From a virus, in the IMG/VR virus record IMGVR_UViG_3300042879_005054, positions 1 to 24,954 of that record: DNA of 24,954 nucleotides, one strand, 5' to 3'. The position numbers and the translations under genes were made by a program. Below are positions 2,150 to 14,869 of the stretch, piece by piece (position 1 is the first letter of the stretch; each line of letters opens with the position of its first letter). Below the pieces are notes generated by a model. It was not told the DNA's origin. It saw only the letters and a program-made list of their open reading frames with translations, and searched no databases.

Positions 2150-2167
2150 TGTGACAAAAATGTCACA
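2150..2167. promoter_or_regulatory. 18-bp palindromic operator-like site (copy 1)
   Basis: TGTGACAAAAATGTCACA, a perfect palindrome apart from its central AAAA, and extended by one matching pair on each side. The centre (2158.5) is 45.5 bp before the first base of the -35 box at 2204. Copies at three other promoters keep exactly this distance, so it is read as a protein-binding site linked to the promoter. Confidence 0.7.
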
Positions 2168-2203
2168 CCCACCCTAGATGAATATCTTTTCATAAAATAA
2201 CCC

Positions 2204-2232
2204 TTTACAACTGTCACGCCTCGTGGTATAAT
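2204..2232 (+). promoter_or_regulatory. sigma70-like promoter with upstream palindrome
   Basis: TTTACA (2204-2209), 17-bp spacer, TATAAT (2227-2232), preceded by AAAATAACCC. Predicted start near 2239. Drives the small-gene run beginning at 2261. Confidence 0.85.
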
Positions 2233-2260
2233 GGTCACATCAAGAGAGGAGAGAGTTACC

Positions 2261-2437
2261 ATGACTTTCAATCAAATCATGATTGCACTGGCTGAGCGTG
2301 GTAAGGTTCACGTGCCGACGGCCGATGCGCGCAATGCGCGCGAAACTATCAACATTCTTGCCGCCGAAGATGGTGTCTCGGTTCGCATTGATACCGTTGC
2401 AGGTGGGGTCGATGTTCGCCTGCGTCGTTTCGCATGA
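2261..2437 (+). CDS. small hypothetical phage protein
   Basis: A 58-residue protein (begins MTFNQIMIALAERGKV) with a strong Shine-Dalgarno (AGAGAGGAGAG) and an expected leader of about 22 nt from the promoter at 2204-2232. Longer in-frame starts would lie inside the -10 box and are rejected. The C-terminal half reads as two short beta strands (VSVRIDTVAGGVDVRLRRF). Its stop overlaps the ATG of the next gene (ATGA), which points to coupled translation. No family recognised. Confidence 0.75.
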   Translation: MTFNQIMIALAERGKVHVPTADARNARETINILAAEDGVSVRIDTVAGGVDVRLRRFA

Positions 2438-2682
2438 ATGTAGTGAATAGGCACGCGACCGACCGAGATATCGAACTCCTGTTCGGTCCGTTGGAGTCGC
2501 ACGAAAAGGTCACCCGCGTGGACACGGTCGAATTGTCTTTCGAGGACATAGCCGTAGCCGTTGGCGCATGGCCTTCACGTGGGCAGGCTCGTAAGAACGG
2601 TTGGTCGGGTCGCGTGCCTACCCGCTTTGGTAACCGCAAGCTTGGTAAGCGTACAATCTGGTGGCTAGAAGCCGTACCTTAA
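2434..2682 (+). CDS. hypothetical protein with GQARKNGW motif
   Basis: An 82-residue protein whose ATG overlaps the preceding stop by four bases. The middle and C-terminal part carries SRGQARKNGWSGRVPTRFG and a GKRTIWWLE tail. The QARKNGW element with a nearby small-residue turn recurs in short early proteins of many phages, but I cannot attach a function. It is read as the second gene of the operon starting at 2261. Codon use resembles the neighbouring GC-richer backbone genes. Confidence 0.75.
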   Translation: MNVVNRHATDRDIELLFGPLESHEKVTRVDTVELSFEDIAVAVGAWPSRGQARKNGWSGRVPTRFGNRKLGKRTIWWLEAVP

Positions 2683-2696
2683 CACAGGAGAGACAT

Positions 2697-2837
2697 ATGC
2701 GTTACGAAGTTACGATCCTTGACGGCCGCCGTATTATTCGGCGCGAGACGTTTAACTCCTACGAGGCTGCTATGGCTTTCTTTGATGTGCAGCGCGATAA
2801 GCACACCTGCGAATTCCGCGACCTGCGGGCTGCCTAA
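2697..2837 (+). CDS. small hypothetical protein
   Basis: A 46-residue protein (begins MRYEVTILDGRRIIRRETF) with an excellent Shine-Dalgarno (CAGGAGAGA) before the ATG. The pattern strand-turn-strand followed by a helix (SYEAAMAFFDVQRD) suggests a compact alpha/beta mini-domain. It sits two bases before the next ATG. Function unknown. Confidence 0.7.
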   Translation: MRYEVTILDGRRIIRRETFNSYEAAMAFFDVQRDKHTCEFRDLRAA

Positions 2838-2839
2838 TC

Positions 2840-2998
2840 ATGGAACGCAAGCTGTATTATTGTGAGTGTGATCCACACGGTGACTCCGTGTGTGATCGCC
2901 CATGCACGCGCTCCGCCCAGGAACGTAAGGCCGAGGCTGATGCTCTCGTAGAAGCTGCTCGCCAAGCAAGGCTTGCTGCTGACAAACAGAAGCCGTAA
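2840..2998 (+). CDS. small Cys-containing hypothetical protein
   Basis: A 52-residue protein with an N-terminal cysteine group (YYCECDP, then VCDRPC) and an Ala/Arg-rich helical tail. Four closely spaced cysteines suggest metal binding, which is inference. Its stop codon shares a base with the next ATG (TAATG). No separate Shine-Dalgarno is obvious, so translation is probably coupled to the gene before it. Confidence 0.6.
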   Translation: MERKLYYCECDPHGDSVCDRPCTRSAQERKAEADALVEAARQARLAADKQKP

Positions 2999-3204
2999 TG
3001 CTAGAGGACCTAGCCGTCTGGTTTGGGTGTAACCCATCACTGCAGGACCCAATCCTGTGTGTGATCAATACCACACTCATAATACCAGGCGTCATGGGTA
3101 TGTTCTCTGTTTTTATTTTATACATTATCGCAATACCCATAGCCCTATGGGTATTGTGTAGAAATCTTGTGGAATATATACGGCAAAGAGTATTAGGAGA
3201 TTAA
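2998..3204 (+). CDS. small membrane protein
   Basis: A 68-residue protein with a hydrophobic stretch at about residues 24-53 (IINTTLIIPG to VLC region), long enough for one long or two short membrane helices, followed by a basic tail (RNLVEYIRQR). It overlaps the preceding stop by one base. Role unknown; small membrane proteins in phage early operons often alter host envelope functions, but nothing here shows that. Confidence 0.65.
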   Translation: MLEDLAVWFGCNPSLQDPILCVINTTLIIPGVMGMFSVFILYIIAIPIALWVLCRNLVEYIRQRVLGD

Positions 3205-3205
3205 C

Positions 3206-3355
3206 ATGGCGCCTTATGGTGGCGGCCGCGATCATCCACCCAGGCCGCGCGATAGTTATATCGAGAATCAGCATGTACACGATTTATCCGCAGTCGATAG
3301 CGCGCTGGCCGTGCTATTCATTGTGGGTGTATTGGTCGCAATCATGCTATGGTAG
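3206..3355 (+). CDS. small single-pass membrane protein
   Basis: A 49-residue protein with a strong Shine-Dalgarno (TTAGGAGA). The N-terminal half is polar with Gly, Pro and His (MAPYGGGRDHPPRPRD). The C-terminal half is one membrane helix (ALAVLFIVGVLVAIMLW) ending at the stop. It overlaps the next tiny gene by seven bases. Topology is probably N-in with a short C-terminus. No family recognised. Confidence 0.65.
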   Translation: MAPYGGGRDHPPRPRDSYIENQHVHDLSAVDSALAVLFIVGVLVAIMLW

Positions 3356-3441
3356 GTATTGAACACTTTTTTGTCGGCCTAATCTTAGGGCTTGTAATAG
3401 GCTGCACATTGACTGCTCATTATCTAATGAGAAAAGAATAG
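3349..3441 (+). CDS. tiny membrane peptide
   Basis: A 30-residue peptide: a short N-terminus, one membrane helix (FFVGLILGLVIGC) and a basic tail (HYLMRKE). It overlaps the end of the previous gene and ends exactly one base before the tRNA-Gln gene. Support is the chained overlap and the clean membrane-helix composition; no clear ribosome site of its own. Confidence 0.5.
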   Translation: MVGIEHFFVGLILGLVIGCTLTAHYLMRKE

Positions 3442-3512
3442 TGCCTGATCGTCTAATGGTAGGACTACAGGTTTTGGTCCTGTGTATGTTGGTTCGAATC
3501 CAGCTCGGGCAG
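3442..3512 (+). tRNA. tRNA-Gln (UUG)
   Basis: A complete cloverleaf: acceptor TGCCTGA with TCGGGCA, anticodon stem ACAGG/CCTGT around loop TTTTGGT (anticodon UUG), T-arm with GGTTCGAATCC. No encoded CCA. It begins immediately after the stop codon of the preceding gene, so it is probably cut out of a longer transcript. Confidence 0.93.
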
Positions 3513-3522
3513 TATTGAATTT

Positions 3523-4296
3523 ATGATGAAACTCATTTCATATAATGATGATATTCATCATAAAGAATTTCGCACCGGACCAATGAAACCGCTAACAACA
3601 GAATATTGGGTCCCGGCCGATACCGAAAAATTATTTGATGAAAATTGGAAAAACCCTGATACCAAAACCAAATTAATTAATCATGGTTGGACTAAGAATA
3701 ATATTCTGTATAAATCCAATGATTTTGGTTTTCGTATGAATGTAAATATTTTTGATATTATTCCAGGTGAATGCGATTTCTATCTTGGGTGTAGTATAAC
3801 CTTTGGTATAGGTCTAAATCTAGAAGATACTTGGGCCTGGAAAATTTCAGAAAAAACCGGGCGTGCTTGCGTAAATCTTGGGTGGGGTGGTTCAGGTATT
3901 GAAACACAATACCGCTTATTGCGGGCCTGGGCAAAAAAACTAAAACCTAAACATGCCTATACATTAGGTTATTTTAATGGTAGACGAGAATTACTAGAAT
4001 CTAAAAACAAAATTCAAAATTTAGGTGTATGGACAGCAAATACAAAACCATGGGATGAAATATACCCAAAGTTAACGACCACCCATGAATTGTTGATATC
4101 GCATATTAGAACCTTTGATGCCATGAGAGCCGTATGTATGGATTATAATATAGAATTATATACTTTAAATGATTTTTATCGAAAAGAGATATTTAATACC
4201 ACTGATAATACTGCGCGCGACCTTCAACATTTTGGGTGTTCTTGGCATACGCAAATTTCAGAATTGCCAAAAACTTATTGGCAGAGATTAGTATAA
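3523..4296 (+). CDS. SGNH/GDSL-hydrolase-like protein
   Basis: A 257-residue protein with an SGNH-type layout. A nucleophile block DFYLGCSITFG lies near residues 85-95 (Ser91 in the place of GDS). An NLGWGGSG block at about 118-125 corresponds to the block II glycine, and a C-terminal ARDLQHFGCSWH (about 231-242) could supply the Asp/His pair. SGNH enzymes remove acyl groups or cut esters from sugars and lipids; the substrate here is unknown. The gene is clearly more AT-rich than the genes on either side, has no good Shine-Dalgarno, and sits between a tRNA and a promoter, all signs of an inserted cargo gene. The hydrolase call is by motif only. Confidence 0.65.
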   Translation: MMKLISYNDDIHHKEFRTGPMKPLTTEYWVPADTEKLFDENWKNPDTKTKLINHGWTKNNILYKSNDFGFRMNVNIFDIIPGECDFYLGCSITFGIGLNLEDTWAWKISEKTGRACVNLGWGGSGIETQYRLLRAWAKKLKPKHAYTLGYFNGRRELLESKNKIQNLGVWTANTKPWDEIYPKLTTTHELLISHIRTFDAMRAVCMDYNIELYTLNDFYRKEIFNTTDNTARDLQHFGCSWHTQISELPKTYWQRLV

Positions 4297-4301
4297 AGCC
4301 C

Positions 4302-4330
4302 TTTACATCACGCCGACTATATGTTAGTAT
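4302..4330 (+). promoter_or_regulatory. sigma70-like promoter
   Basis: TTTACA (4302-4307), 17-bp spacer, TAGTAT (4325-4330), with the CCC before the -35 box seen at the palindrome-bearing promoters. No palindrome is present at the expected upstream position, which falls in the preceding gene. Predicted start near 4337. Confidence 0.7.
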
Positions 4331-4353
4331 GCTTATATCAAGAGGAGAGTGAC

Positions 4354-4605
4354 ATGAAGCTTGAAATTGACGATGACCTGGTTGACAAGATTGTTGTCGA
4401 GGCGCTTCGACGCCAATATGAAAGCCTGTGTAATTCCATTCATGATCTTGAGGGTCGCCGTAGCCTCGCTAAGTATGAAGAGGAAGACCTGAGGGATAAT
4501 ATCATGTATGCCCGCGCGATTCGAAAGGCTGTGGAGTATTTCTCAGTGGCCAGTGATCATGAGCGTTGGCTTACCAGTGTAGAGGATGAAATCAATGACC
4601 GCTAA
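4354..4605 (+). CDS. acidic helical hypothetical protein
   Basis: An 83-residue protein, mostly charged helix (KIVVEALRRQYESLCNSI and EEEDLRDNIMYARAIRKAVE), with a strong Shine-Dalgarno (AAGAGGAGAG) in the expected place for the promoter at 4302-4330. An upstream in-frame ATG at 4321 precedes the predicted transcription start and is rejected. It overlaps the next gene. No family recognised. Confidence 0.75.
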   Translation: MKLEIDDDLVDKIVVEALRRQYESLCNSIHDLEGRRSLAKYEEEDLRDNIMYARAIRKAVEYFSVASDHERWLTSVEDEINDR

Positions 4606-4810
4606 TATCGCATATGGCATTGCAGCATTTTTTGCCGTTATCTTTGGCGCACCTGGTGTTGTCTATCTACATAACCTGTATCTTGGGTTTTTGTTCAATG
4701 ACGTATTCTTTTGGACTAGTCTGTGGCTGATCATCATTGGCGTTGCGATTGCATCCATGGTCACCGAGATTCTTAGCCTGAAGAAGAAGTCCGATGGGCA
4801 AAACAACTAA
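4595..4810 (+). CDS. two-helix membrane protein
   Basis: A 71-residue protein with two membrane helices (IAYGIAAFFAVIFGAPGVVY and FFWTSLWLIIIGVAIASMV) and a lysine-rich tail (LKKKSDGQNN). The start at 4595 is chosen because AGAGG lies about ten bases upstream; an alternative ATG at 4586 is possible. It overlaps both neighbours. Two helices with a basic tail is a holin-like layout, but such proteins are too generic for that call. Confidence 0.65.
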   Translation: MTANIAYGIAAFFAVIFGAPGVVYLHNLYLGFLFNDVFFWTSLWLIIIGVAIASMVTEILSLKKKSDGQNN

Positions 4811-4943
4811 CATTGGTGGTAAGACGAAAGTCTATCAAGGTAAGAATGGGTTCACCTCGACATTCACTAAGATCAAGGTGAACCAGGGTAGTAAGTGGGT
4901 ACGATCTGGTGGCACATCAAAAACGCCGAGGAAATCAAAGTGA
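4794..4943 (+). CDS. small basic hypothetical protein
   Basis: A 49-residue Lys/Gly/Thr-rich protein (begins MGKTTNIGGKTKVYQGKNGF; ends with a KTPRKSK tail), predicted strongly positive. It starts inside the end of the membrane-protein gene and ends with a four-base GTGA overlap with the next gene. Such overlaps on both sides support translation. Nucleic-acid binding is possible from the charge but not shown. Confidence 0.6.
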   Translation: MGKTTNIGGKTKVYQGKNGFTSTFTKIKVNQGSKWVRSGGTSKTPRKSK

Positions 4944-5347
4944 GCGAATTTGACCCCGAGCTTCAAAAGATTGTTGATGCTTGTGACTATGACACCAAGC
5001 TTGCTGTAGCCGCGTGGGTTATCTCCAAGATTGATGATCATGGTGAGGGTGGTGGTTCTTTTCGTTATCTGATCTACAATCGTCTTGGCTTTGGCCCTGA
5101 TGCCTACGTGCCTCTGTATGAGGCTGGTGGTATGAATATTACGAATGAGCTTGACTATGATGCCATGAGTAACATTGCCGAAGTCATGCGCGAGGAGAAG
5201 ATCGAGTCGGTAAAGCTAAAGGGTATGGTCGGACTTTGCGACGAACCTGGTTGCTTTGATTTTATTAGCTGTGGTACGCCGACCGATAATGGTTATCGCA
5301 GCACTTGTAGTAAACACGCTCCGAACCGTGTGAGTTCGGGCCCGTAG
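4940..5347 (+). CDS. hypothetical protein with C-terminal zinc-ribbon-like motif
   Basis: A 135-residue protein from a GTG start, chosen because GAGGAAA lies about nine bases upstream and the GTG overlaps the preceding TGA. The N-terminal two thirds is mixed alpha/beta. The last 30 residues hold LCDEPGC, ISCG and TCSKH, a four-Cys pattern typical of a zinc ribbon. Its last ten bases, including the stop, are also the first bases of the tRNA gene at 5338, so maturation of that tRNA would cut this mRNA at its 3' end. Function unknown. Confidence 0.75.
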   Translation: MSEFDPELQKIVDACDYDTKLAVAAWVISKIDDHGEGGGSFRYLIYNRLGFGPDAYVPLYEAGGMNITNELDYDAMSNIAEVMREEKIESVKLKGMVGLCDEPGCFDFISCGTPTDNGYRSTCSKHAPNRVSSGP

Positions 5348-5411
5348 CCCAACCGGCAGAGGCAGAGGACTTAAAATCCTCACAGTGTCGGTTCGAATCC
5401 GACCGGGCCTA
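5338..5411 (+). tRNA. tRNA with Leu-type UAA anticodon and short variable arm
   Basis: Acceptor GGGCCCG pairs with CGGGCCT, anticodon stem GAGGA/TCCTC encloses CTTAAAA (anticodon UAA), and GTCGG/CCGAC is the T stem. The variable region is only five bases (ACAGT). Bacterial tRNA-Leu is a class II tRNA with a long variable arm, so this is atypical. It overlaps the 3' end of the preceding CDS by ten bases. No encoded CCA. Confidence 0.85.
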
Positions 5412-5412
5412 C

Positions 5413-5485
5413 GGACCTGTAGCTCAATGGTTAGAGCTGGCCGCTCATAACGGTCTGGTTGGGGGTTCGAATCCCTCCGGGTCCA
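5413..5485 (+). tRNA. tRNA with CAU anticodon (Met or Ile2)
   Basis: Acceptor GGACCTG/CGGGTCC, D arm GCTC/GAGC, anticodon stem GGCCG/CGGTC around CTCATAA (anticodon CAU), normal T arm with TTCGAAT. No encoded CCA. Sequence alone does not settle whether it is elongator Met or the AUA-reading Ile tRNA that needs lysidine. Confidence 0.9.
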
Positions 5486-5643
5486 TCAGATTATGATGTG
5501 GTTGCTAGATGCTGCATCATATACCCGAGTATCCGCGATTAGGGTGCGGGGTTTAGTCATCTAGCTATGCTTGCGCTGGGTGGGGGTGCAGGCAAGATTA
5601 ATCCTTACTGCTGCTTGCGGTGGGGATAGCCCACCCCAATTTT
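5486..5643 (+). other. 158-base gap inside a tRNA cluster, structured, no clear gene
   Basis: No convincing gene. Direct reading shows several pairings: TATGATG (from 5492) with CATCATA, CTAGATG (5505-5511) with CATCTAG (5558-5564), CTTGC (5569) with GCAAG (5591), the same GCAAG with a second CTTGC (5613), and GGTGGG with CCCACC near the end, followed by AATTTT. Two mini-ORFs of about 20 codons are present without ribosome sites. It may be a processed small RNA, decayed tRNA material or spacer. Confidence 0.35.
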
Positions 5644-5720
5644 GGTCCCGTAGCTCAGCTGGATAGAGCAACAGACTTCTAATCTGTGGGTCGCACGTTC
5701 GAGTCGTGCCGGGATCGCCA
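5644..5720 (+). tRNA. tRNA-Arg (UCU)
   Basis: Acceptor GGTCCCG/CGGGATC, anticodon stem ACAGA/TCTGT around CTTCTAA (anticodon UCU), T arm GCACG/CGTGC with TTCGAGT, discriminator G at 5717 and an encoded CCA at 5718-5720. Reads AGA and AGG codons. Confidence 0.93.
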
Positions 5721-5725
5721 GGTTA

Positions 5726-5784
5726 GCAAGAGGGCCACCTCGGCAGTCGTATTGAAAGATACCAAACGGAGCCTCTTGCTGTAT
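5726..5784 (+). repeat. inverted repeat in the leader between tRNA-Arg and the second tctC-like gene
   Basis: AGCAAGAGG and CCTCTTGCT are complementary over nine bases around about 40 nt of spacer. No T-run follows, so it is not a standard terminator. The right arm overlaps the candidate -35 element of the promoter at 5776. May fold in RNA or serve as a DNA site. Confidence 0.35.
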
Positions 5785-5804
5785 CGGTCGTAGCTCTATA
5801 TACG
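5776..5804 (+). promoter_or_regulatory. weak candidate promoter
   Basis: TTGCTG, 17-bp spacer, TATACG. Four of six consensus bases match in each box. Placed sensibly before the gene at 5832, but clearly weaker than the other promoters in the window. Confidence 0.3.
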
Positions 5805-5831
5805 AGTAGGGATATTCTAGCGAGGTTTGAT

Positions 5832-6800
5832 ATGATTAGTCGTAGAAACATTATGATTGGTATTGGTGCATTAGCATTTACAGATAATGCTAATTCGCAA
5901 AGTCTAGCGCGGGCGAGCGAACTTACATTTGTGGTGCCGGCTTCGCCTGGCGGGTCAGCTGATATTAGTGGTCGCTTACTTGCACGTGAGATATCATCAA
6001 TTAGATCACTCCCAATTATCGTCACCAATAGATCAGCTGGTCAAGGAATTGAAGGTACACTTCATGTATTCAATTCCAGTTCGGACTCAGGAAATGTTTT
6101 GGTCGGCGGACCCAATGGATTATTTTTTGCACCGGCAAGAGAAAATCTACCGTATAATGTAGATAGCTTTGAACCTGTATGTATGTTTAGTGCCGCATCA
6201 TTTGTATTGGTATCTCGTACCGATAGATTTCAAAATATCAATGAATTAATTTCTGCGATGCAATCGCGGCGCGTAAATTTTGCATTTAGTGCAGCCGATG
6301 GTAGATATTTAATTGAGCGAATGTCTGCATCACTAAATGCAAAAGATACGGTAGCTGTATCTTATCGCGGTGGTGGTGATGCTGTAAGAGATGTTCATTC
6401 TGGTGTGGTTGATGTTGCGATTACATCATTGGCATCAGTTATTGGGTTGGTGCAAAGTGGGTCTTTAAATCTTTTGGCGCATACACTTGATCACGGCAAC
6501 ATTGATGTCTACCCAAATGTACCACGATTAAGTAATATTCTTAATAGTACTGACCCAGCACTAACAACATTTCATTGGCACGGCCTCTATATGCCAAAAG
6601 GTTCTTCGCAATCCGTAATCCAGGCATTGCAAGATGCATCCAAAATTATATGCACAAGTCAATCGTTTATTAATAATCACGTCGAACGTGGTATGACTTC
6701 TCGTTATATGGATTCTATTCAATTACGCGAGCATCATATCAGAATGAATGAATATATGGTTGGGTATAACAATTGGTTGAAAGGGATTACTGTACGATGA
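5832..6800 (+). CDS. second TctC/Bug-family periplasmic solute-binding protein
   Basis: A 322-residue homologue of the extracytoplasmic receptors of tripartite tricarboxylate transporters. GCGAGG lies six bases before the ATG. The N-terminus has twin arginines at 4-5 (ISRRNIMIGIGALAF), so export is probably by Tat. Family features: LTFVVPASPGGSADISGRLLA at about residues 31-51, NRSAGQGIEGT in place of the usual RPGA-G-G loop, VSYRGGGDAVRDV, and a late DVYPNVPRLS. It is much diverged from the copy at 527-1498 and more AT-rich, so the two look separately acquired rather than a recent duplication. No transporter membrane subunit is nearby. Ligand unknown. Confidence 0.88.
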   Translation: MISRRNIMIGIGALAFTDNANSQSLARASELTFVVPASPGGSADISGRLLAREISSIRSLPIIVTNRSAGQGIEGTLHVFNSSSDSGNVLVGGPNGLFFAPARENLPYNVDSFEPVCMFSAASFVLVSRTDRFQNINELISAMQSRRVNFAFSAADGRYLIERMSASLNAKDTVAVSYRGGGDAVRDVHSGVVDVAITSLASVIGLVQSGSLNLLAHTLDHGNIDVYPNVPRLSNILNSTDPALTTFHWHGLYMPKGSSQSVIQALQDASKIICTSQSFINNHVERGMTSRYMDSIQLREHHIRMNEYMVGYNNWLKGITVR

Positions 6801-6991
6801 TTAAAGATATTCGAATTGTTCAGGATCATGGTTGGTTGCAACAACCTGACGGTAGACTGGAATGGGGCCCAACTCAATTTTGGATTGAATACCAGAATGA
6901 ATTAAATGAGTGGAAAAAGCTTGATGTGGTTAAGATCAATGAACTGCCGCGTGAAGATGACCCTCTTTATGATCCACCAATTAGCCATTGA
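6797..6991 (+). CDS. small hypothetical protein, coupled to the TctC-like gene
   Basis: A 64-residue protein whose ATG overlaps the TGA of the TctC-like gene (ATGA). It contains several Trp and acidic residues (DHGWLQQPDGRLEWGPTQFW) and reads as a small beta-rich domain with a Pro/Asp-rich tail. No signal peptide, so it is probably cytoplasmic. No family recognised. Confidence 0.7.
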   Translation: MIKDIRIVQDHGWLQQPDGRLEWGPTQFWIEYQNELNEWKKLDVVKINELPREDDPLYDPPISH

Positions 6992-7016
6992 CATTTGATG
7001 CACACTAATATAGTAT
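6988..7016 (+). promoter_or_regulatory. sigma70-like promoter for the tRNA cluster
   Basis: TTGACA (6988-6993), 17-bp spacer, TAGTAT (7011-7016). The predicted start near 7023 leaves only about four bases before the first tRNA at 7027. Confidence 0.75.
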
Positions 7017-7026
7017 GACACTATAC

Positions 7027-7117
7027 CGGCGTGAGGGTTGGTACTCACCAGGAGCTTATACCTCCTTAGGCAGCTGATTACTGTTGGGATAGGGTTCGAT
7101 TCCCTACATGCCGACCA
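7027..7117 (+). tRNA. class II tRNA with UAU anticodon
   Basis: Acceptor CGGCGTG/CATGCCG, three-pair D stem GGT/ACC, anticodon stem AGGAG/CTCCT around CTTATAC (anticodon UAU), T arm TAGGG/CCCTA with TTCGATT, encoded CCA. The variable region is 23 bases, as in Leu, Ser or Tyr tRNAs, while UAU is an isoleucine anticodon (AUA). The body and the anticodon therefore disagree, and the amino acid it carries is uncertain. Confidence 0.8.
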
Positions 7118-7123
7118 AGTTTT

Positions 7124-7198: not shown

Positions 7199-7204
7199 GT
7201 TTTT

Positions 7205-7293: not shown

Positions 7294-7299
7294 TTATTT

Positions 7300-7398: not shown

Positions 7399-8244
7399 AT
7401 GATAGCATATATTACAACATACAAATTGAATATCAAATCATATTCGATTTCGACTATTGCAACTGAATTGGTATCAAGAGGTATCAAAGTTAGATTTTTT
7501 GATATTAGTTCTGATGATATTAGATTAAACCCAACACCCAATTTAATCTATGTTTGTCACCCGATGTTATCATCGATGATTCCCTTATATCGAGAAATGG
7601 AAAATAGAGGGTGTGTAGTTCTAAGTGATATTGAATCATCATTGATTGCTAGTGATAAGTGGTTATCATATAAATCACTAATTTCTTCAAATATTAGAAC
7701 ACCAGTAACACAATTAATTCGTCAGAATGAAATACCTAATGTGGGATGGCCATGTGTTATCAAACCAACATGTAGATGGTTTGGTGAGGGTGCATCATTA
7801 GTATTTTCATCTAATGATGTTCATGCTGCTTATATCAAAGCATCCTCATATCATGAAAATCAAGTTATTGCTCAGGAATATTTGGGGTATATGCACAATC
7901 TTGTAATTGTTGCAAATACTATAGGTGATAATATTTTTAGTTCATATATGAGTATTGGTAGAGGTGGGTTTATGTCAGCCATTGATGAAAAGCAAAGAGC
8001 TGTTATACCAATGGCACCACCCGATGATATAATTGATATTACCAAAAGGGTAATTAAATCAATTCCAATTGATATATCAAGAATGGAGATGATGCTTACG
8101 GAGCATGGACCAAGTATTATTGATATTAATTCTGGTGGTGCTAGAATGTGGGTAGATGTTTGTAGTAAGAAAAATTCTGCTAGATATCTTGCAGATCATT
8201 TAATATCAAAATATGAGAAATGCAATGTTAGAAACTATAGCTAG
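7399..8244 (+). CDS. RimK-like ATP-grasp ligase (A)
   Basis: A 281-residue ATP-grasp protein of the RimK type, a family that joins an amino acid or amine to a carboxylate through an acyl-phosphate. Motifs in order: SDIESSLIASDKW with the linker RTPVTQLI (about 76-107), WPCVIKP at 117-123 (ATP-binding lysine), a glycine-rich loop RWFGEGASL, AQEYLG at about 158-163, SIGRGG, a basic KQR near 200, and the metal-binding IDINSGGA at 241-248. The two small genes downstream overlap and follow on the same strand. Two more ATP-grasp genes lie on the opposite strand just beyond. The block is strikingly AT-rich. The substrate is unknown; peptide or side-chain modification is a reasonable inference. Confidence 0.85.
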   Translation: MIAYITTYKLNIKSYSISTIATELVSRGIKVRFFDISSDDIRLNPTPNLIYVCHPMLSSMIPLYREMENRGCVVLSDIESSLIASDKWLSYKSLISSNIRTPVTQLIRQNEIPNVGWPCVIKPTCRWFGEGASLVFSSNDVHAAYIKASSYHENQVIAQEYLGYMHNLVIVANTIGDNIFSSYMSIGRGGFMSAIDEKQRAVIPMAPPDDIIDITKRVIKSIPIDISRMEMMLTEHGPSIIDINSGGARMWVDVCSKKNSARYLADHLISKYEKCNVRNYS

Positions 8245-8428: not shown

Positions 8429-8678
8429 TTGGGAATTATTAAGAACAATAGCACGTTGCATGTTTATAACACCAATGCAGCATGTCCATACAGGATATGA
8501 TTGGCCTACAAAACAAAGAGAATGGGAATCTCTTTCAGATAATCAAAAACAAATTTGGTATGATAAAGCAGAAAATTGGTTAAATGATCTTAGCTTAAAA
8601 ATGCCAGATGCGTATGAATTTTATATCACTTACGGAATCCCTGATCTAGGTGATCGGAATCATCTTTTTAATAACTGA
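8418..8678 (+). CDS. small helical protein, paralogue 2
   Basis: An 86-residue protein overlapping paralogue 1 by 11 bases, with the shared TIAR-x-M-x-I-x-P start, an acidic helix containing KAENWLNDLSLKMPDAYEF, and an extra C-terminal tail (GIPDLGDRNHLFNN) missing from paralogue 1. Its 3' end overlaps the 3' end of the opposite-strand ATP-grasp gene B by 19 bases. No family recognised. Confidence 0.7.
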   Translation: MNHDWELLRTIARCMFITPMQHVHTGYDWPTKQREWESLSDNQKQIWYDKAENWLNDLSLKMPDAYEFYITYGIPDLGDRNHLFNN

Positions 8679-9625
8679 TATTTTTCGATAGCACGATCGA
8701 CCATATGACCGGCAAGATTTTTTAGCGAGCAAGCTTCTGTCATAGGAAAATTTGCTGACGGGTTAACTTCACAGAGTTTCAACCCATCTTTTGTCGGAAA
8801 CATATCTACACGACCCCATTCAACATCTAAAGCATCTAATGAATTAATTATTAAGTCTCGCATTTCTTTGCTTGTTGCAATAGGCAATTGCACACGACCC
8901 TCAGCATTAGCAAAATTCGCTTGAAATTTTTCATACCCTACAAATGATGGAGGAATTGCTTGCATTGTGCTTTGTATATTTCTATCCCTAACTGCGTGGG
9001 CAGTTAACATATAATTTAAATTGAGATATTCTTGCGCTATTACAGTTGTATTATGTTTACTATTTGGTATTTTTGGGTCAGATGAAAGTCGTCTCGTAAA
9101 TTGAGCATTCGATAAAGATTGTATTAAATTTCCACTTATTGATTGTAGCTCAAATTCATTCAAACATAAAAATACCTTTTCCGAACCAGCAGCAAATCTC
9201 CATTTAATCACGCAAGGGTACCCTATGATATCACCAATTTGTTCGGCGGCAGTATCTTCTAAAATGTCTATGAATAAAGTTTTAGGTGTGGGTAACCCAG
9301 CTTTAACATATTTTTTGTGAGCATTGATCTTATCAAGAGCTTCTATGTGGGGTTCAATATCTGTAACAAATATTGTTCCGTGTTTTCTCAATACTCCTAA
9401 TTTTTTTAGATTGTCAGGGTTCCAAACAGCATGTCGCATTATAACCAAATTAGGTGGTATAATTTTTTTTCCGTCAATAAAAATATCATCACCAATAACA
9501 GTACACATATCAGGGTGTACATGCTCAGCATCTAAATTGCGTTTTTGCATTTCATCTAAAAATCGCCACGTTTCATAAAAATATGATTTAGGCCAGGGTG
9601 ATGTCAATAACCAAGCTTTCAACAC
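8660..9625 (-). CDS. RimK-like ATP-grasp ligase (B)
   Basis: A 321-residue ATP-grasp protein. Motifs: FVTDIEPHIEALDKINAHK with GLPTPKTLFI (about 86-119), YPCVIKW at 136-142, AGSEK loop at 146-150, VIAQEYL at about 195-201, EWGRVDMFP, and CEVNPSANF at 285-293, the Glu-x-Asn metal site. Length and order match RimK-type ligases that add amino acids to proteins or peptides. It is convergent with the small paralogues and overlaps ATP-grasp gene C upstream by seven bases, so B and C form one minus-strand unit. AT-rich like the rest of the block. Substrate unknown. Confidence 0.88.
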   Translation of the reverse strand: MLKAWLLTSPWPKSYFYETWRFLDEMQKRNLDAEHVHPDMCTVIGDDIFIDGKKIIPPNLVIMRHAVWNPDNLKKLGVLRKHGTIFVTDIEPHIEALDKINAHKKYVKAGLPTPKTLFIDILEDTAAEQIGDIIGYPCVIKWRFAAGSEKVFLCLNEFELQSISGNLIQSLSNAQFTRRLSSDPKIPNSKHNTTVIAQEYLNLNYMLTAHAVRDRNIQSTMQAIPPSFVGYEKFQANFANAEGRVQLPIATSKEMRDLIINSLDALDVEWGRVDMFPTKDGLKLCEVNPSANFPMTEACSLKNLAGHMVDRAIEKYQLLKR

Positions 9626-10578
9626 GAGTTATCTTTCTTATATTTTTCCAAAGTATATTTGGCTGTTAGTAACCCACAATCCATATTCATAAAAAGATCA
9701 TATGATATAAATGAACCGGGTGAATTTACTTCACCTATTAGATAGTGTTTACCATTGTGAAAAATATCTAATCTTGACATCTCAATATTATTCATACATT
9801 CCAAAGCATCTAAAGTTATATCATGCAATTCCTTATCTAATTTATATTCAGTTCTAATAGAATTTTGTCTATGGTTTGATATAAAAAAATCTGTTTCTTC
9901 TTTTGGTATTCTCTGCTGAATCCCTATAATTTCTTTTCCTAATGTTAATACTGATAATATACCCTTTGTTCTATGATCAATCCATTCTTGTAATATTGCT
10001 ATTCTAGAATAAGGGTATAATTTATATATTTTATACAAAGATTCAAAAATATCATCAATTGTAAAACATTTAAAAACACTATCGGCCCTAGACCCACAAT
10101 TTGATTTTACTACTATAGGAAATTTTAATTTTGCAATTTTCATAGCATCTTCAATTTGATCTGATGATGAATCTAAAAAAATTGATGTTGTTATAGGTAT
10201 TGGTATATTTGATTCCCATAATTTCTCATATTGTTTATGTTTAAATACACAAAAAACTAATGATTGTGGGTTATTAATTACCATCACCCCACGGGTTTGA
10301 TACAAATTTAAAATTTCGATTTCTTTGTATGAATAGATCATACATCTTACGATAATTATATTTGGTAGATTCTTAATAGGGATTGTTGATACATATAAAC
10401 TGCTACCCAATTCCGTCATGCTAACTATTTTAGCACAAATATTCATTTTCAATAGACCAGTTTTTACTTTTAAAGCTTCAAAAATGCTACTTTGCTTTTC
10501 CTGAATTAGATTATTAATATCCAATTCATTAGCATTTTCATCATTTAAATAACGGGTTACTACCCAAGCCGATATCAT
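9619..10578 (-). CDS. RimK-like ATP-grasp ligase (C)
   Basis: A 319-residue ATP-grasp protein. The start at 10578 is chosen because AGAGGG lies nine bases upstream; a longer frame would run into the nuclease gene. Motifs: VINNPQSLVFCVFKHKQYE with NIPIPITTSIF (about 100-134), FPIVVKS at 153-159, ILQEWID at about 195-201, MSRLDIFHNG, and GEVNSPGSF at 282-290. The glycine-rich loop (CGSRADSVFK) is less typical than in B. Its position directly upstream of B, with overlap, points to co-expression. Very AT-rich. Substrate unknown; A, B and C are probably related ligases working on linked substrates. Confidence 0.85.
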   Translation of the reverse strand: MISAWVVTRYLNDENANELDINNLIQEKQSSIFEALKVKTGLLKMNICAKIVSMTELGSSLYVSTIPIKNLPNIIIVRCMIYSYKEIEILNLYQTRGVMVINNPQSLVFCVFKHKQYEKLWESNIPIPITTSIFLDSSSDQIEDAMKIAKLKFPIVVKSNCGSRADSVFKCFTIDDIFESLYKIYKLYPYSRIAILQEWIDHRTKGILSVLTLGKEIIGIQQRIPKEETDFFISNHRQNSIRTEYKLDKELHDITLDALECMNNIEMSRLDIFHNGKHYLIGEVNSPGSFISYDLFMNMDCGLLTAKYTLEKYKKDNSC

Positions 10579-10588
10579 AAAATACCCT

Positions 10589-11035
10589 CTAATTACACCA
10601 GCTAGTTTTGGCCTCACCAAAATACTCGCGCGCGAGACCTTCTCTGATTAGCATCGCGCGTAGTGATCTACCATCAATCATAATATCACCTAATACTCGC
10701 CCACCATACTTGTCCCATTCTCTAAGCATCACCGTTACTCTAGATGCCGAAGCTACAGCATTCGTTGTGTATTCTGATGCGCGCTGCCCTAGTGCTGCTT
10801 CTCTTGGGCATAAAGCACGATGACCCTTTTCTGGTGTATCAACCCCAAAGACGCGAACAGATATTCGTTGTGCAATTGGGGCTGGCACCCATGGCGCTTC
10901 AAACTGAACCGTGTCACCATCGACAACGCGAATCACTCTCCACGAATGCTCGACAGGTTCGATGTTTCGTCCTTGAGCCAATGCGGTATTGATACCGATC
11001 ATTAGCCCGAGAAGCGCCATGAGAATACGCATCAT
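10589..11035 (-). CDS. thermonuclease (SNase-like), exported
   Basis: A 148-residue staphylococcal-nuclease-like enzyme that cuts DNA or RNA. The start at 11035 (with AAGGG upstream) gives a 20-residue signal peptide (MRILMALLGLMIGINTALA, then QGRN). The fold signatures are complete: VIRVVDGDTVQF (Asp39, Asp41), RVFGVDTPE (Arg61, Asp66, Glu69), and DKYGGRVLGDI (Arg113), followed by LREGLA-type helix text (MLIREGLAREYFGE). All catalytic residues are in place. The predicted site of action is the periplasm or outside the cell, where it might degrade competing phage DNA or recycle host nucleic acid; that role is inference. It follows the coiled-coil gene by one base. Confidence 0.92.
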   Translation of the reverse strand: MMRILMALLGLMIGINTALAQGRNIEPVEHSWRVIRVVDGDTVQFEAPWVPAPIAQRISVRVFGVDTPEKGHRALCPREAALGQRASEYTTNAVASASRVTVMLREWDKYGGRVLGDIMIDGRSLRAMLIREGLAREYFGEAKTSWCN

Positions 11036-11036
11036 A

Positions 11037-11366
11037 TTAGCCCTTAGCCTTTCTACCGCGCTTAGCTGGTGCAGGTGGCGGGGCTGCCTTAGGTGTGCGC
11101 GGCTTACGCACAACATTTTCCTTGACCTTAGCGACCTTAACCTCAACCTTTTCGACAGCCTTCTCAACTTCGACTTGGGCGGCCTCAACCTTAGCTTCGA
11201 CCTTTTCGATAACCTGCTTTACTTCGGCCTGCGCTGCTTCGACCTTAGCCTCTACCTTGGCCTCAACCTTGTCAGCAATTTCCTTGACTTCAGCCTTCAC
11301 CTCATCAAGCTTCTTCTCGGCCTCGATCTTCTTTAGACCCAGCCACACAAGAATTTTTGTAAACAT
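11037..11366 (-). CDS. Lys/Glu/Ala coiled-coil protein with basic Pro/Ala tail
   Basis: A 109-residue low-complexity protein. Residues 1-13 are hydrophobic (MFTKILVWLGLKK). About 14-85 is a coiled coil built from degenerate repeats of VEAKVEAAQAE and VEKAVEKVE. The C-terminus is basic and Pro/Ala-rich (RKPRTPKAAPPPAPAKRG). The start has a strong Shine-Dalgarno (GGAGGAG). The layout resembles histone H1-like or phasin-like host proteins, and DNA or membrane association is possible. The repeats also produce long spurious open frames on the other strand. Confidence 0.8.
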   Translation of the reverse strand: MFTKILVWLGLKKIEAEKKLDEVKAEVKEIADKVEAKVEAKVEAAQAEVKQVIEKVEAKVEAAQVEVEKAVEKVEVKVAKVKENVVRKPRTPKAAPPPAPAKRGRKAKG

Positions 11367-11463
11367 ATCTCCTCCTTATAGCGAATAAATCGCAGTTTAT
11401 GTATATAACATATTCGCATCAATTGATAGGGCTAACTAAGGTCAAGATAGCCAAATTTAATTC

Positions 11464-11492
11464 TTGACAAATGCCATAATCACCTGTATAAT
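11464..11492 (+). promoter_or_regulatory. near-consensus sigma70 promoter
   Basis: TTGACA (11464-11469), 17-bp spacer, TATAAT (11487-11492): both boxes are perfect. No palindrome at the expected upstream position. Predicted start near 11499. Confidence 0.85.
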
Positions 11493-11513
11493 TTCCTATT
11501 GAAGGAGTCAGGT

Positions 11514-11717
11514 ATGAATAGTATAGTCAAGATCCAAGTACAGCATCTTGCTAGCAATGGTCAGCCAATTACTAATTGGTCTGATCAAACACATCTGAGC
11601 TACCCAACAGACCAATCGATCTATAATCATATGTTGGCTGCTAAGCGATGCTGGAGAAACGCTAGGGTCAGAGCCGTTGATGGTAGAGGTAATATTTTGG
11701 ACATGATGTATGCTTGA
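11514..11717 (+). CDS. small hypothetical protein
   Basis: A 67-residue protein with a strong Shine-Dalgarno (AAGGAG) and a predicted 15-nt leader from the promoter at 11464-11492. It reads as mixed alpha/beta, starting MNSIVKIQVQHLASNGQPI and ending RVRAVDGRGNILDMMYA. The stop overlaps the start of the methyltransferase-like gene, so the two are probably translated together. No family recognised. Confidence 0.75.
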   Translation: MNSIVKIQVQHLASNGQPITNWSDQTHLSYPTDQSIYNHMLAAKRCWRNARVRAVDGRGNILDMMYA

Positions 11718-12369
11718 CCCAGAAGAATTACACATTGACGGTAAGCTATGGGGTGCAAAGGATAATAGATTTTGGTGTCTATTATCCACACTTCTCATTA
11801 AGACTAAGCCTCAATCCATTTTAGAGATTGGTGCAGGTCGCAGCACAACATTTTTTAGCGAATACGCTGTTAATACTGACATACCATTCGTCTCCATAGA
11901 GCAATCTGTTGATTGGTATAGAGAAATACATCGCTCATTAAGGTTTATGTTTTTACCTGGCAGTCACATAAGACACGTCCCAATCGATCATGAATCTGGG
12001 TGGTATGATTATGATATGGCGTCAGACACTATAGGTCATACTGCATATGATCTGGTTATGATTGATGGACCTACAGGTAGAACGGGTCGTAGAAATCAAC
12101 GAGGTAATGATATTCTGGAGCTAGCGTGTCGCAAATCTAGAATGGTTATCATTGACGATACACACCGCGATGAATGTCTTAGTTTTGCCAATCATATTTG
12201 CGACAGAAGGCAATTTCAAACCGTTGTCAACATAAATTATCGGCAGCGCCGCAAGGGTGTATACGATTCAAATATGTTAACAATTGCAACTTCAGAATGG
12301 TCCGACATTGTAAAGAACCGGGTTCAAGACATTTACGGTGCCGAGGGTGTGACATTTAAGTCACAGTGA
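11710..12369 (+). CDS. class I SAM-dependent methyltransferase-like protein
   Basis: A 219-residue protein with a Rossmann-type SAM-binding core: SILEIGAGRSTTFF at about 37-49 (motif I), FVSIEQS at about 60-66 (acidic end of strand 2), DLVMIDGPTGR near 114-124 (motif IV region) and RMVIIDDTHRDE near 143-154. This arrangement is like small methyltransferases acting on sugars or small molecules that share the family's IDG and IDD acid pair. No target-recognition domain for DNA is visible. It overlaps the preceding small gene by eight bases. Its TGA stop lies inside palindrome copy 3. Substrate unknown. Confidence 0.75.
   Translation: MLDPEELHIDGKLWGAKDNRFWCLLSTLLIKTKPQSILEIGAGRSTTFFSEYAVNTDIPFVSIEQSVDWYREIHRSLRFMFLPGSHIRHVPIDHESGWYDYDMASDTIGHTAYDLVMIDGPTGRTGRRNQRGNDILELACRKSRMVIIDDTHRDECLSFANHICDRRQFQTVVNINYRQRRKGVYDSNMLTIATSEWSDIVKNRVQDIYGAEGVTFKSQ
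12348..12365. promoter_or_regulatory. 18-bp palindromic operator-like site (copy 2)
   Basis: TGTGACATTTAAGTCACA, in tandem with copy 3 (centres 17 bp apart). The outer arms of the pair, GAGGGTGTGA and TCACACCCTC (12343-12387), are also complementary over ten bases. Confidence 0.6.
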
Positions 12370-12382
12370 CATTTTTATCACA
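12365..12382. promoter_or_regulatory. 18-bp palindromic operator-like site (copy 3)
   Basis: AGTGACATTTTTATCACA. The centre (12373.5) is 45.5 bp before the -35 box at 12419, the same distance as at the other three promoters. It contains the stop codon of the methyltransferase-like gene. Confidence 0.65.
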
Positions 12383-12418
12383 CCCTCTGAAGGTTAACAC
12401 AAATTAATAAAATACCTC

Positions 12419-12447
12419 TTTACAAACGCCATAATGCCCTGTAGTAT
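12419..12447 (+). promoter_or_regulatory. sigma70-like promoter with upstream palindromes
   Basis: TTTACA (12419-12424), 17-bp spacer, TAGTAT (12442-12447), preceded by AAAATACC. Predicted start near 12454. Confidence 0.8.
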
Positions 12448-12473
12448 GCCTACAAATGAGAGGAGCAACTAGC

Positions 12474-12656
12474 ATGGAATATGGGGTTGACACCGAACGC
12501 AATCTTTCTACCCTCGACCTTGAATGGGTAGAGTATGTGGCGGGGCGCAAGGTCTCCACGGCCGAAGCTGCCCAGCTTATTCGCGAGTATAACGAATGGT
12601 TGGATCAGATGGAGGCAAATGATGTCGGTCCGGAATTGTATACCGAAGCATCGTGA
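12474..12656 (+). CDS. small acidic protein, possible UGA readthrough extension to 12746
   Basis: A 60-residue protein (helical, acidic: LEWVEYVAGRKVSTAEAAQL) with Shine-Dalgarno AGAGGAG and a good match to the promoter at 12419-12447. The frame stays open after its TGA (12654) for 29 more codons that look protein-like (EIPPGYGYEGGPRKARPGF), ending at a TGA at 12744 inside palindrome copy 4. No start codon of standard type lies between. The extension may be readthrough (TGA is followed by C), a recent nonsense change, or coincidence. No family recognised. Confidence 0.7.
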   Translation: MEYGVDTERNLSTLDLEWVEYVAGRKVSTAEAAQLIREYNEWLDQMEANDVGPELYTEAS

Positions 12657-12741
12657 CCCTTCCTGGAGATTCCTCCGGGCTATGGGTACGAAGGTGGTCC
12701 GCGCAAAGCGCGGCCGGGGTTCGTATACCCGCAAGGGTCGG

Positions 12742-12759
12742 TGTGATAAAAATGTCACA
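12742..12759. promoter_or_regulatory. 18-bp palindromic operator-like site (copy 4)
   Basis: TGTGATAAAAATGTCACA with flanking G and C extending the dyad. The centre (12750.5) is 45.5 bp before the -35 box at 12796. Confidence 0.65.
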
Positions 12760-12795
12760 CCGCATCGGTACCCTGGCTGACGCCCAATTTTACCC

Positions 12796-12824
12796 TTTAC
12801 AAATGGCTAAACCCGCGCTATAAT
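12796..12824 (+). promoter_or_regulatory. sigma70-like promoter with upstream palindrome
   Basis: TTTACA (12796-12801), 17-bp spacer, TATAAT (12819-12824), preceded by TTTTACCC. Predicted start near 12831. Confidence 0.85.
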
Positions 12825-12857
12825 GGCGACGTTGACAACATGAAAGGCTCTTATATC

Positions 12858-13418
12858 ATGACGATGAAGCGTAACGACAAGGTTCAGATTATCATCGACC
12901 TGCTTGCCGACGGCAACGGTCGGTTCACCGTAGCTGAGCTACTGGCCAAGGCTGGCTCCGAGCGGCGCGCTCGGTCGGCTATCTTCCTGGCGCGTCAGGC
13001 GGGCACCGGCCTCGAACCCATCCGCGATGGTCGCGAGGTTATCTCCTACATTAGTGCCAAGATCGGCGCCGAGCAGCGCGCGGTTGCTAATGCGGCCGCC
13101 AAGGCTGTCGCAGCCACCAAGGCGACCAAGCCTGTCAAGGTCAAGGCTGTCAAGCCGCCGAAGCAGGTCAAGGTTAAGGTTGACGCCCCGACCCCCGTCA
13201 AGCGCCCGAAGGGTGCGACTCCGGTCCCGGGTCAGCCGACCCAGTATGACATGCCGATGCCGGCGCGTAGCTCCTGGCGTGGTAAAAAGAGCTATGCCGA
13301 AGAGCTGGCCGATATCCTCAAGGAAGATGGCCCTGCCATCGTGGCTATGGGTAAGCGTAACCTCGGTCCTGAGGGTGCGCTTGAGGTCGAGGAGATTACC
13401 GAAAAGAAGGTGGCCTAA
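12858..13418 (+). CDS. Lys/Ala/Pro-rich protein with N-terminal helix-turn-helix-like domain
   Basis: A 186-residue protein. Residues 5-65 read as a small winged-helix-like domain (IIIDLLADGNGRFTVAELLAKAG, then RRARSAIFLARQAG and a REVISYI strand). About 75-130 is a basic, Ala/Lys/Pro-rich linker with KPVKVKAVKPPKQVKVKV, and the C-terminus is an acidic helical segment. The start at 12858 is favoured by AAAGG about 11 bases upstream; an in-frame ATG at 12840 would have almost no leader. DNA binding is likely from this layout, as in histone-like or regulator proteins, but not proven. The DNA ligase gene follows with a TAATG overlap. GC-rich codon use. Confidence 0.75.
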   Translation: MTMKRNDKVQIIIDLLADGNGRFTVAELLAKAGSERRARSAIFLARQAGTGLEPIRDGREVISYISAKIGAEQRAVANAAAKAVAATKATKPVKVKAVKPPKQVKVKVDAPTPVKRPKGATPVPGQPTQYDMPMPARSSWRGKKSYAEELADILKEDGPAIVAMGKRNLGPEGALEVEEITEKKVA

Positions 13419-14314
13419 TGGCCTCCTCCTTCCGCCCCATGCTGGCCTGTCAATATGACAAGGCCAAGGTGCGCTGGCCCATGCTCGCTAGCCCGAAGCT
13501 TGATGGCATCCGCTGTCTAGCTTTTGGCGGCGTAGCTATGGCTAGGTCGATGAAGCCGATCCGCAACCGCTATATTCAAGCTTGGTTTAAGGCTAATGCT
13601 GAGGTATTGCAGGCATTTGATGGCGAGCTAATTGTCGGCCCACCCAATGCTGCCGATGTGTTCAATGTGACCTCTTCGGCTGTCAATAGCGAGGACGGCG
13701 AGCCCGACTTTACGTATCACGTATTTGATCGGGTTGCGCTCGGTGATTATACCCATCGTTTTGACTATCTTCGCCAAGAGGATATGCCTGATCGTGTCAA
13801 GATTGTTGCAAATTTCACCATCTTTAGCGAGGGTGATCTTGGCTTTTATGAATCCAAAGCACTAGATGAAGGCTATGAGGGTGTCATGCTACGCCACCCA
13901 ATGTCGCCTTACAAGCAGGGTCGATCTACGCCAAAGGAAGCTTACCTTCTTAAGGTCAAGCGGTTTTTTGATGCCGAGGCCGAGATCATTGACCTGCTAG
14001 AGGAAATGCGTAACGATAACCCGCTGACGACAAATGAATTGGGTCTTGGTAAGCGGTCAAGCCATCAAGCCAATCTAGTTGCTAAGGGTACCATGGGCAC
14101 CCTATGTGTCCGTGGCATCAATGGTGAATTCAAGGGTGTGGAATTTGGTATTGGGTCTGGCTTTGATCAGGCTACACGCCAAGCACTCTGGAATGATCGT
14201 CAAAACATGCTAGGCAAGATTGTGACATATAAGTACTTTTCGATTGGCGTAAAGGACAAGCCACGGTTCCCTGTCTTCAAGGGACTCCGTGACCCGATTG
14301 ATATCGGAGGGTGA
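13418..14314 (+). CDS. ATP-dependent DNA ligase, T7-like short form
   Basis: A 298-residue ligase that seals nicks in double-stranded DNA through an enzyme-adenylate. It has the nucleotidyltransferase motifs: SPKLDGIR at about 25-32 with Lys27 as the predicted AMP-carrying residue, FDGELIVG (67-74), YHVFD (100-104), EGVMLR (154-159) and LLKVKRF (177-183). The rest is an OB-fold domain with GTLCVRG and KYFSIGVKDKPRFPVF. Length is a little under that of T7 ligase (about 359). It overlaps the preceding gene by one base and is followed by the GNAT-like gene after two bases. Likely role: replication and repair of phage DNA. Confidence 0.93.
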   Translation: MASSFRPMLACQYDKAKVRWPMLASPKLDGIRCLAFGGVAMARSMKPIRNRYIQAWFKANAEVLQAFDGELIVGPPNAADVFNVTSSAVNSEDGEPDFTYHVFDRVALGDYTHRFDYLRQEDMPDRVKIVANFTIFSEGDLGFYESKALDEGYEGVMLRHPMSPYKQGRSTPKEAYLLKVKRFFDAEAEIIDLLEEMRNDNPLTTNELGLGKRSSHQANLVAKGTMGTLCVRGINGEFKGVEFGIGSGFDQATRQALWNDRQNMLGKIVTYKYFSIGVKDKPRFPVFKGLRDPIDIGG

Positions 14315-14316
14315 CA

Positions 14317-14763
14317 ATGGACATGAAAGAATACCGAGCACCCGAAGCTTGGCTAAATGAATTACTCATGTCCGACCCAGTTAGACCTTCTATATCAATA
14401 CCCGATAGGTATGGGCATAATCGTGCCGTATTTGTCTTGTGGCAAGATGAAAAGCCAACGGCTGTATGCTGCGTGGTGCTGCTAGATTACGTCCCGGCTG
14501 CCGAGTCGGAGTTATTCTATGAGGGCAATGAACACTATGACCATGCCTGCATGTATACGATCTGGGCATTGCGCCCTGGGGCTGGGCGCGCTCTAGCCTC
14601 GCGCCTTGTGCCGCATCTTCGCCAGAAATACGCCGTGGCTCGCGTGGTGACCCTGTCACCAAACACCGCCATGGCAAAACGGTTCCATCTTAATAACGGC
14701 GCCGTAATATTTCGGGATAATGAAGATTTCGAAACCGTAAATTACGAATATGAGGCGGTGTGA
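14317..14763 (+). CDS. GNAT-like acetyltransferase
   Basis: A 148-residue protein with GNAT-type features: a beta-strand core AVFVLWQDEKPTAVCCVVLL, the YTIWALRPGAGRALASRLVPHL segment resembling the acetyl-CoA-binding loop and helix, and VVTLSPNTAMAKRFHLNNGAV, a typical final motif in which a residue after the helix packs on the cofactor. GGAGGG lies before the ATG at 14317. GNAT enzymes transfer an acetyl group to an amine; the target is unknown. Its TGA stop lies in palindrome copy 5. Assignment is by motif only. Confidence 0.7.
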   Translation: MDMKEYRAPEAWLNELLMSDPVRPSISIPDRYGHNRAVFVLWQDEKPTAVCCVVLLDYVPAAESELFYEGNEHYDHACMYTIWALRPGAGRALASRLVPHLRQKYAVARVVTLSPNTAMAKRFHLNNGAVIFRDNEDFETVNYEYEAV

Positions 14764-14776
14764 CATTTATGTTACA
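14759..14776. promoter_or_regulatory. 18-bp palindromic operator-like site (copy 5)
   Basis: TGTGACATTTATGTTACA, 28 bp (centre to centre) upstream of copy 6. One mismatch in the right arm. It contains the stop codon of the GNAT-like gene. Confidence 0.6.
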
Positions 14777-14786
14777 CTGAGGGTGG

Positions 14787-14804
14787 TGTGACATATATGT
14801 CACA
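14787..14804. promoter_or_regulatory. 18-bp palindromic operator-like site (copy 6)
   Basis: TGTGACATATATGTCACA, a perfect palindrome. Its centre (14795.5) is 45.5 bp before the -35 box at 14841. A second dyad, TTCTTAAC-AAAA-GTTAAGAA (14813-14832), lies between it and the promoter. Confidence 0.7.
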
Positions 14805-14840
14805 GGGGTCGATTCTTAACAAAAGTTAAGAAAATAACCC

Positions 14841-14869
14841 TTTACATACCCCTAGAACCGTGGTATAAT
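14841..14869 (+). promoter_or_regulatory. sigma70-like promoter with upstream palindromes
   Basis: TTTACA (14841-14846), 17-bp spacer, TATAAT (14864-14869), preceded by AAAATAACCC exactly as at 2204. Predicted start near 14876, which is the A of the next ATG. Confidence 0.85.

Follow-up and report, generated by a model that had tools for sequence, protein, structure and literature searches.

An 18-bp palindrome, TGTGAYA-W4-TRTCACA (extended consensus STGTGAYA-W4-TRTCACAS), lies at one fixed distance upstream of four sigma70-type promoters in a 24,954-base viral contig fragment (IMG/VR record IMGVR_UViG_3300042879_005054, hereafter the window). The same palindrome precedes strong sigma70-type promoters in many other phages, where the distance to the -35 box takes values in three narrow classes, separated by about one turn of the helix. 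We consider it probable that the palindrome is the DNA site of a symmetric dimeric protein, a class I-type activator working on a subset of these promoters. Such a dimer would bind the palindrome as double-stranded DNA and contact RNA polymerase along one helical face, probably via the carboxy-terminal domain of the alpha subunit (alpha-CTD), and the contact would activate a subset of sigma70-type phage promoters, presumed early. Activation as the effect, the alpha-CTD as the target and the early timing of the promoters are what we infer from motif and geometry.

Distances and carriers of the palindrome

All six palindromes reported in a preliminary description of the window, at 2150, 12348, 12365, 12742, 14759 and 14787, are present with zero or one mismatch on their better strand. 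The copies at 2150, 12742 and 14787 match TGTGAYAWWWWTGTCACA exactly, those at 12348 and 14759 deviate at one position each, and the copy at 12365 also has one mismatch when counted on its better strand. With up to three mismatches allowed, 13 matches were found on both strands of the window, compared with a mean of 0.76 and a maximum of 4 in shuffles. The four promoters of that description (2204, 12419, 12796 and 14841; P1 to P4) were likewise recovered, three of them with TATAAT and P2 with the weaker TAGTAT. At each of the four, exactly 36 bp separate the end of the palindrome from the -35 box, which puts the palindrome centre 45.5 bp before the -35 box, in agreement with the position of about -80.5 proposed relative to the expected start. 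Most of the 36 bp was said to differ between promoters, which holds for the gap overall (9-22 of 36 positions identical per pair, and 2-13 in the first 24 bp) but fails for the last 12 bp adjoining the -35 box, which are AAAATAACCC-like and agree at 5-11 of 12 positions. Tandem copies are spaced 17 bp apart at P2 and 27-28 bp apart at P4 (window and 155-kb relative).

Contigs carrying a DNA ligase 80-100% identical to that of the window have palindromes in matching places, with a gap of 36 or 37 bp and often with TGTACA as the -35 box; the gap, exact within the window, is constant to +/-1 bp among these close relatives. Random distances between copies and promoters, which the preliminary description held would speak against a protein site, are not the pattern found in a 155-kb relative. 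Eight copies there match the A/T-centred consensus with no more than two mismatches; two of them have no promoter and six precede one, with gaps of 37, 37, 37, 37, 39 and 64 bp, the last being a tandem copy as at P4. Strong promoters that bear a site are a minority in this relative. A variant arrangement was observed at L106:719-736 and 2941-2958 (G001 60719 and 62941), where a TGTTGCA/TGCAACA half-site is paired with TGTGACA at gaps of 37 and 39 bp from strong promoters.

The distances were then counted in a collection of 2.9 million viral contigs. So that promoters would play no part in the choice of sites, the contigs of a first set were fetched by the palindrome alone and strong promoters were sought on either side; similar contexts were removed before counting with a shared 8-mer filter. 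In this set 31 of 45 strong promoters have gaps of 25-27, 35-37 or 45-47 bp, classes that make up 9 of 90 positions, and within 0-59 bp the count is 31 of 37 (binomial p ~3e-20 under uniform gaps). An enlarged set, which adds contigs fetched with a -35 box at a free distance of 20-51 bp, places 60 of 77 promoters in the same three classes, with a best-fitting gap period of 10.25-10.5 bp. The -10 and -35 signals, counted separately, each peak at the offsets expected from these classes. Palindrome centres therefore lie near -70, -80.5 and -91, with no -61 class seen, in support of the class I-like position first suggested. Between independent contigs the length of the gap is kept within these classes and the intervening sequence is different. 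Two versions of the motif occur in at least 120 viral stretches each, and a composition-matched control palindrome in 38.

Shared proteins link 84 of the 86 loci with a phased site to a T4-like set. Three of the 84 (L271, L530 and L558) have no direct match to a T4-like reference, and L271 is part of a 54.8-kb contig (G031) with very few genes in common with other carriers; the pair L181/L221 has the phased site and is unrelated to the T4-like set. Sites were at chance level in 13 T4-like records, comprising three single-cell viruses and ten cultured phages of known hosts (HTVC008M, Mosig, Melnitz-1, P-SSM2, P-TIM40, S-SCSM2R, DSL-LC03, phiM12, Ochrobactrum OC and Stenotrophomonas DLP_6). Among candidate host chromosomes, 2 of 385 alphaproteobacterial genomes and none of 369 gammaproteobacterial ones have a near-perfect site before a -35-like hexamer. 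This near absence argues against a host regulon built on near-perfect sites; as only such sites were sought, degenerate host sites could be missed. At bacterial-genome loci the gap from palindrome to TTKACA is flat, with no phasing. In a Clostridiales genome (L466), an AcoR-like activator gene is preceded by TGTGACA-N4-TGTCACA repeats in tandem, which we take as a lead only.

Competing explanations of the palindrome

The palindromes fold well as RNA (z-scores of -2.9 to -5.2 over four regions), as any such palindrome would, and the stop codon of the upstream gene lies inside two copies, 12365 and 14759, arguably fewer than the "several" first described. A 3' end or processing signal of the upstream gene would account for both features, and yet we regard it as very unlikely. 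Helical phasing to a downstream -35 box is not expected of an RNA hairpin, and the copies in the window do not qualify as intrinsic terminators (a GC-rich hairpin with a T tract behind it), since no T tract was found behind any of them and none is listed by the plus-strand scan. The variable pair at positions 6 and 13 bears on the same question: at 61 independent phased sites it is C/G in 18, C/A in 21, T/G in 20 and T/A in 2. An RNA hairpin read toward the promoter would tolerate U-G and not C-A, so that the near equality of pair-breaking C/A and wobble T/G fits a double-stranded site; taken with the phasing, it contradicts a role purely as an RNA 3'-end hairpin, the outcome that the preliminary description had named as fatal to its proposal. 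In several marine relatives, moreover, another hairpin, terminator-like and with its own T tract, stands between palindrome and promoter, inside a gap that still measures 36, 37 or 45-47 bp. Hairpins of this kind between palindrome and -35 box were noted at the marine loci L113, L117, L009, L014 and similar ones. It is exceedingly unlikely that the promoters are a duplicated cassette whose fixed distance reflects simple homology, even with the likeness of the 12 bp beside the -35 box in the window and with cassettes that look copied within one phage cluster. The contexts had been filtered by shared 8-mers, and the gaps keep their length while differing in sequence; many gap pairs of the same class were already seen to be unalignable and to stand beside unrelated genes, and simple copying would not yield three distance classes one turn apart. 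Constant distance with varied gaps, together with the two further classes one turn away, thus supports the original argument for a protein site under selection over simple duplication.

The sign of the regulation does not follow from phasing alone, tandem copies occur, and many promoters with a phased site, having a good extended -10, could be strong unaided. These observations suit a repressor or an architectural protein with a helical-phase-dependent effect, in which the palindrome would serve as an operator for repression or silencing, or would be bound by a DNA-bending protein, and the phasing would arise from looping or from wrapping around RNA polymerase. We consider this unlikely: a single site at -70 to -91 stays clear of the core promoter, the majority of phased sites stand alone with no second, downstream operator evident, and the tandem spacings vary (17, 20-22 and 27-34 bp overall). 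It is nevertheless one of several points that weigh against an activator. The frequent extended -10 means that activator dependence is not evident from the promoter sequences. For most of the palindromes fetched by motif alone, neither side has a strong consensus promoter at phased distances, which leaves room for other uses of the motif. Consensus was the basis for recognising promoters, and some related contigs may still be counted after deduplication at the threshold used. No palindrome was found in a 17-kb contig whose ligase is 85% identical (L083), and none of the CRP, FNR, TyrR, RegA and Pho-box consensus sequences matched.

For the dimeric activator that we prefer, a host protein is only slightly favoured over a phage-encoded binder, since the site is present in phages that share little else. 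In a narrower form of the activator reading the binder would be a phage-encoded early regulator, for example the helix-turn-helix (HTH)-like product of the gene behind P3 (12840-13418), acting on its own and other promoters. A model of this protein has a three-helix, HTH-like N-terminus and a K/A/P-rich tail, at low confidence (mean predicted local distance difference test, pLDDT, of 57); proteins of similar plan, with an HTH-like start and a basic tail, are encoded by the first gene after the phased palindrome in L186, L530 and L539, and proteobacterial genomes hardly ever show the phased arrangement. We find this form improbable. A profile search with the P3 product matched only freshwater relatives and detected no homology to the L186, L530 and L539 proteins; no shared HTH regulator was seen on comparing motif carriers, whose contigs are incomplete, with pelagiphages (HTVC008M, Mosig and Melnitz); and G031 has the same phased site in spite of its very different gene content. 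When 88 accessory proteins from the 155-kb relative were scanned against Pfam and PHROG, the first 25 families per table included no HTH regulator; among them a single WYL_2 SH3 protein was common to six groups.

Literature searches returned no description of the palindrome motif. At somewhat less than an even chance, we suggest that a previously undescribed activator, of host or phage, recognises TGTGAYA-W4-TRTCACA with class I geometry and turns on some of the promoters of a large set of uncultured T4-like phages that infect aquatic bacteria. A site in helical register in many uncultured marine and freshwater T4-like phages points to an extra layer of control, which may be a host signal sensed by the phages or a phage regulator not yet recognised. 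With so simple a motif and geometry, a DNA pull-down could find the protein, and regulated promoters could be marked in metagenomic phages.

Genes and other features of the window

The coordinates of palindromes, promoters and the genes behind them are given in Table 1. The first genes behind the four promoters encode short proteins without family matches.

Table 1. Palindromes, promoters and downstream genes in the window.
Feature	Position	Strand	Remarks
Palindrome TGTGACAAAAATGTCACA	2150..2167	.	gap 36 bp to P1 -35
P1 promoter TTTACA-N17-TATAAT	2204..2232	+	extended -10 TG
P1 first open reading frame (ORF), 58 aa	2261..2437	+	without family match
Tandem palindrome copy TGTGACATTTAAGTCACA	12348..12365	.	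gap 53 bp to P2 -35
Palindrome AGTGACATTTTTATCACA	12365..12382	.	gap 36 bp to P2 -35; upstream ORF stop TGA at 12367-12369
P2 promoter TTTACA-N17-TAGTAT	12419..12447	+	weaker
P2 first ORF, ~60 aa	12474..12656	+	without family match
Palindrome TGTGATAAAAATGTCACA	12742..12759	.	gap 36 bp to P3 -35
P3 promoter TTTACA-N17-TATAAT	12796..12824	+	
P3 first ORF, 192 aa	12840..13418	+	no Pfam/PHROG match; candidate DNA-binding protein
ATP-dependent DNA ligase	13418..14314	+	second gene behind P3
Tandem palindrome copy TGTGACATTTATGTTACA	14759..14776	.	gap 64 bp to P4 -35; upstream ORF stop TGA at 14761-14763
Palindrome TGTGACATATATGTCACA	14787..14804	.	gap 36 bp to P4 -35
P4 promoter TTTACA-N17-TATAAT	14841..14869	+	extended -10 TG
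P4 first ORF, 41 aa hydrophobic peptide	14876..15001	+	followed by GP88-family gene, 15003-15692 (second gene behind P4)

The window encodes DNA ligase, deoxynucleoside monophosphate (dNMP) kinase, PhoH and a gp59-like N-terminus, as well as eight tRNA genes and a permuted transfer-messenger RNA (tmRNA) of alphaproteobacterial type, a content which marks it as T4-like, with a likely alphaproteobacterial host. The permuted tmRNA (22100-22474; predicted tag ANDNGFAVALAA) is also found in the 155-kb relative (L107:4564-4837). At 1503-1560 a promoter TTGACA-N17-TATCAT lies inside an inverted repeat (TTGCGGTTTACCTGTGAT ... ATCACAAAGGTAAACCGCAA), possibly an operator, directly before the ORF at 1560-1799. 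Host-like metabolic genes (3-521, 527-1498, 5832-6800 and 23107-23955) comprise a partial IMPDH/GMP reductase-family gene, two TctC/Bug substrate-binding proteins and DAHP synthase. The genes at 7399-8244, 8660-9625, 9619-10620 and 10589-11188 include three RimK-like ATP-grasp genes, two of which, on the minus strand, adjoin a nuclease-like (SNase) gene.

Comparison with known regulatory systems

Class I CRP promoters of E. coli likewise combine a sigma70 promoter with an upstream palindrome bound by a dimer, whose positions are spaced by one helical turn (-61.5, -71.5, -82.5 and -92.5; PMC11894529), and the three palindrome positions described here fall within about 2 bp of class I CRP positions. 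A site found at several upstream positions on the same helical face, as is typical of class I, is what the three gap classes and their period amount to. The TGTGA/TCACA half-sites are 8 bp apart here and 6 bp apart in CRP sites, and the present motif is longer, with an A/T centre. This 8-bp spacing, seen in the window copies and in the collected viral sites, does not fit the CRP regulon (TGTGA-N6-TCACA). The copies also depart from the FNR site (TTGAT-N4-ATCAA), as they read TGAYA-N4-TRTCA, with one extra base per arm and no TTGAT; the spacing is thus unlike that of CRP or FNR, as initially noted.

TyrR boxes (TGTAAA-N6-TTTACA, with an invariant G-N14-C) resemble the palindrome in their 18-bp length and in their TGT-N12-ACA and G-N14-C geometry, and TyrR acts as an activator by way of the RNA polymerase alpha-CTD (PMC4374768). 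The inner half-site differs, being GAYA here and AAA in TyrR boxes; the copies have the G-N14-C and the half-site TGTGAYA, and do not fit the TyrR regulon consensus. The sites of RegA/PrrA/RegR are inverted repeats bound by a Fis-like domain (PMC4263372), with a published half-site G-W-C-R-M (PMC5435760). The right half GTCAC of the palindrome fits this half-site, whereas the left half is without their conserved CGG. The RegA/PrrA regulon calls for an inverted repeat of the GCG type; viral contigs as a whole contain four GC-rich TGCGACA palindromes before TKKACA, no -10 is recognisable at any of them, and RegA/PrrA was rejected as the binder.

The Pho box is a direct repeat of 7-bp TGTCACA units with an A/T-rich 4-bp spacer, and overlaps the -35 box. 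The 7-bp unit and the spacer are common to both; in the window copies the units are inverted and lie far upstream, which sets the palindrome apart from a Pho box. In T4-type phages the middle stage is governed by MotA/AsiA, with a MotA box near -30 that replaces the -35 box. To our knowledge early transcription in these phages has been treated as activator-free, and we know of no class I geometry described for them. The promoters reported here are like the MotA/AsiA middle promoters in belonging to T4-like phages and in that an extra protein site marks a subset of promoters; they differ in that the -35 box is kept and the site lies at -70 to -91.

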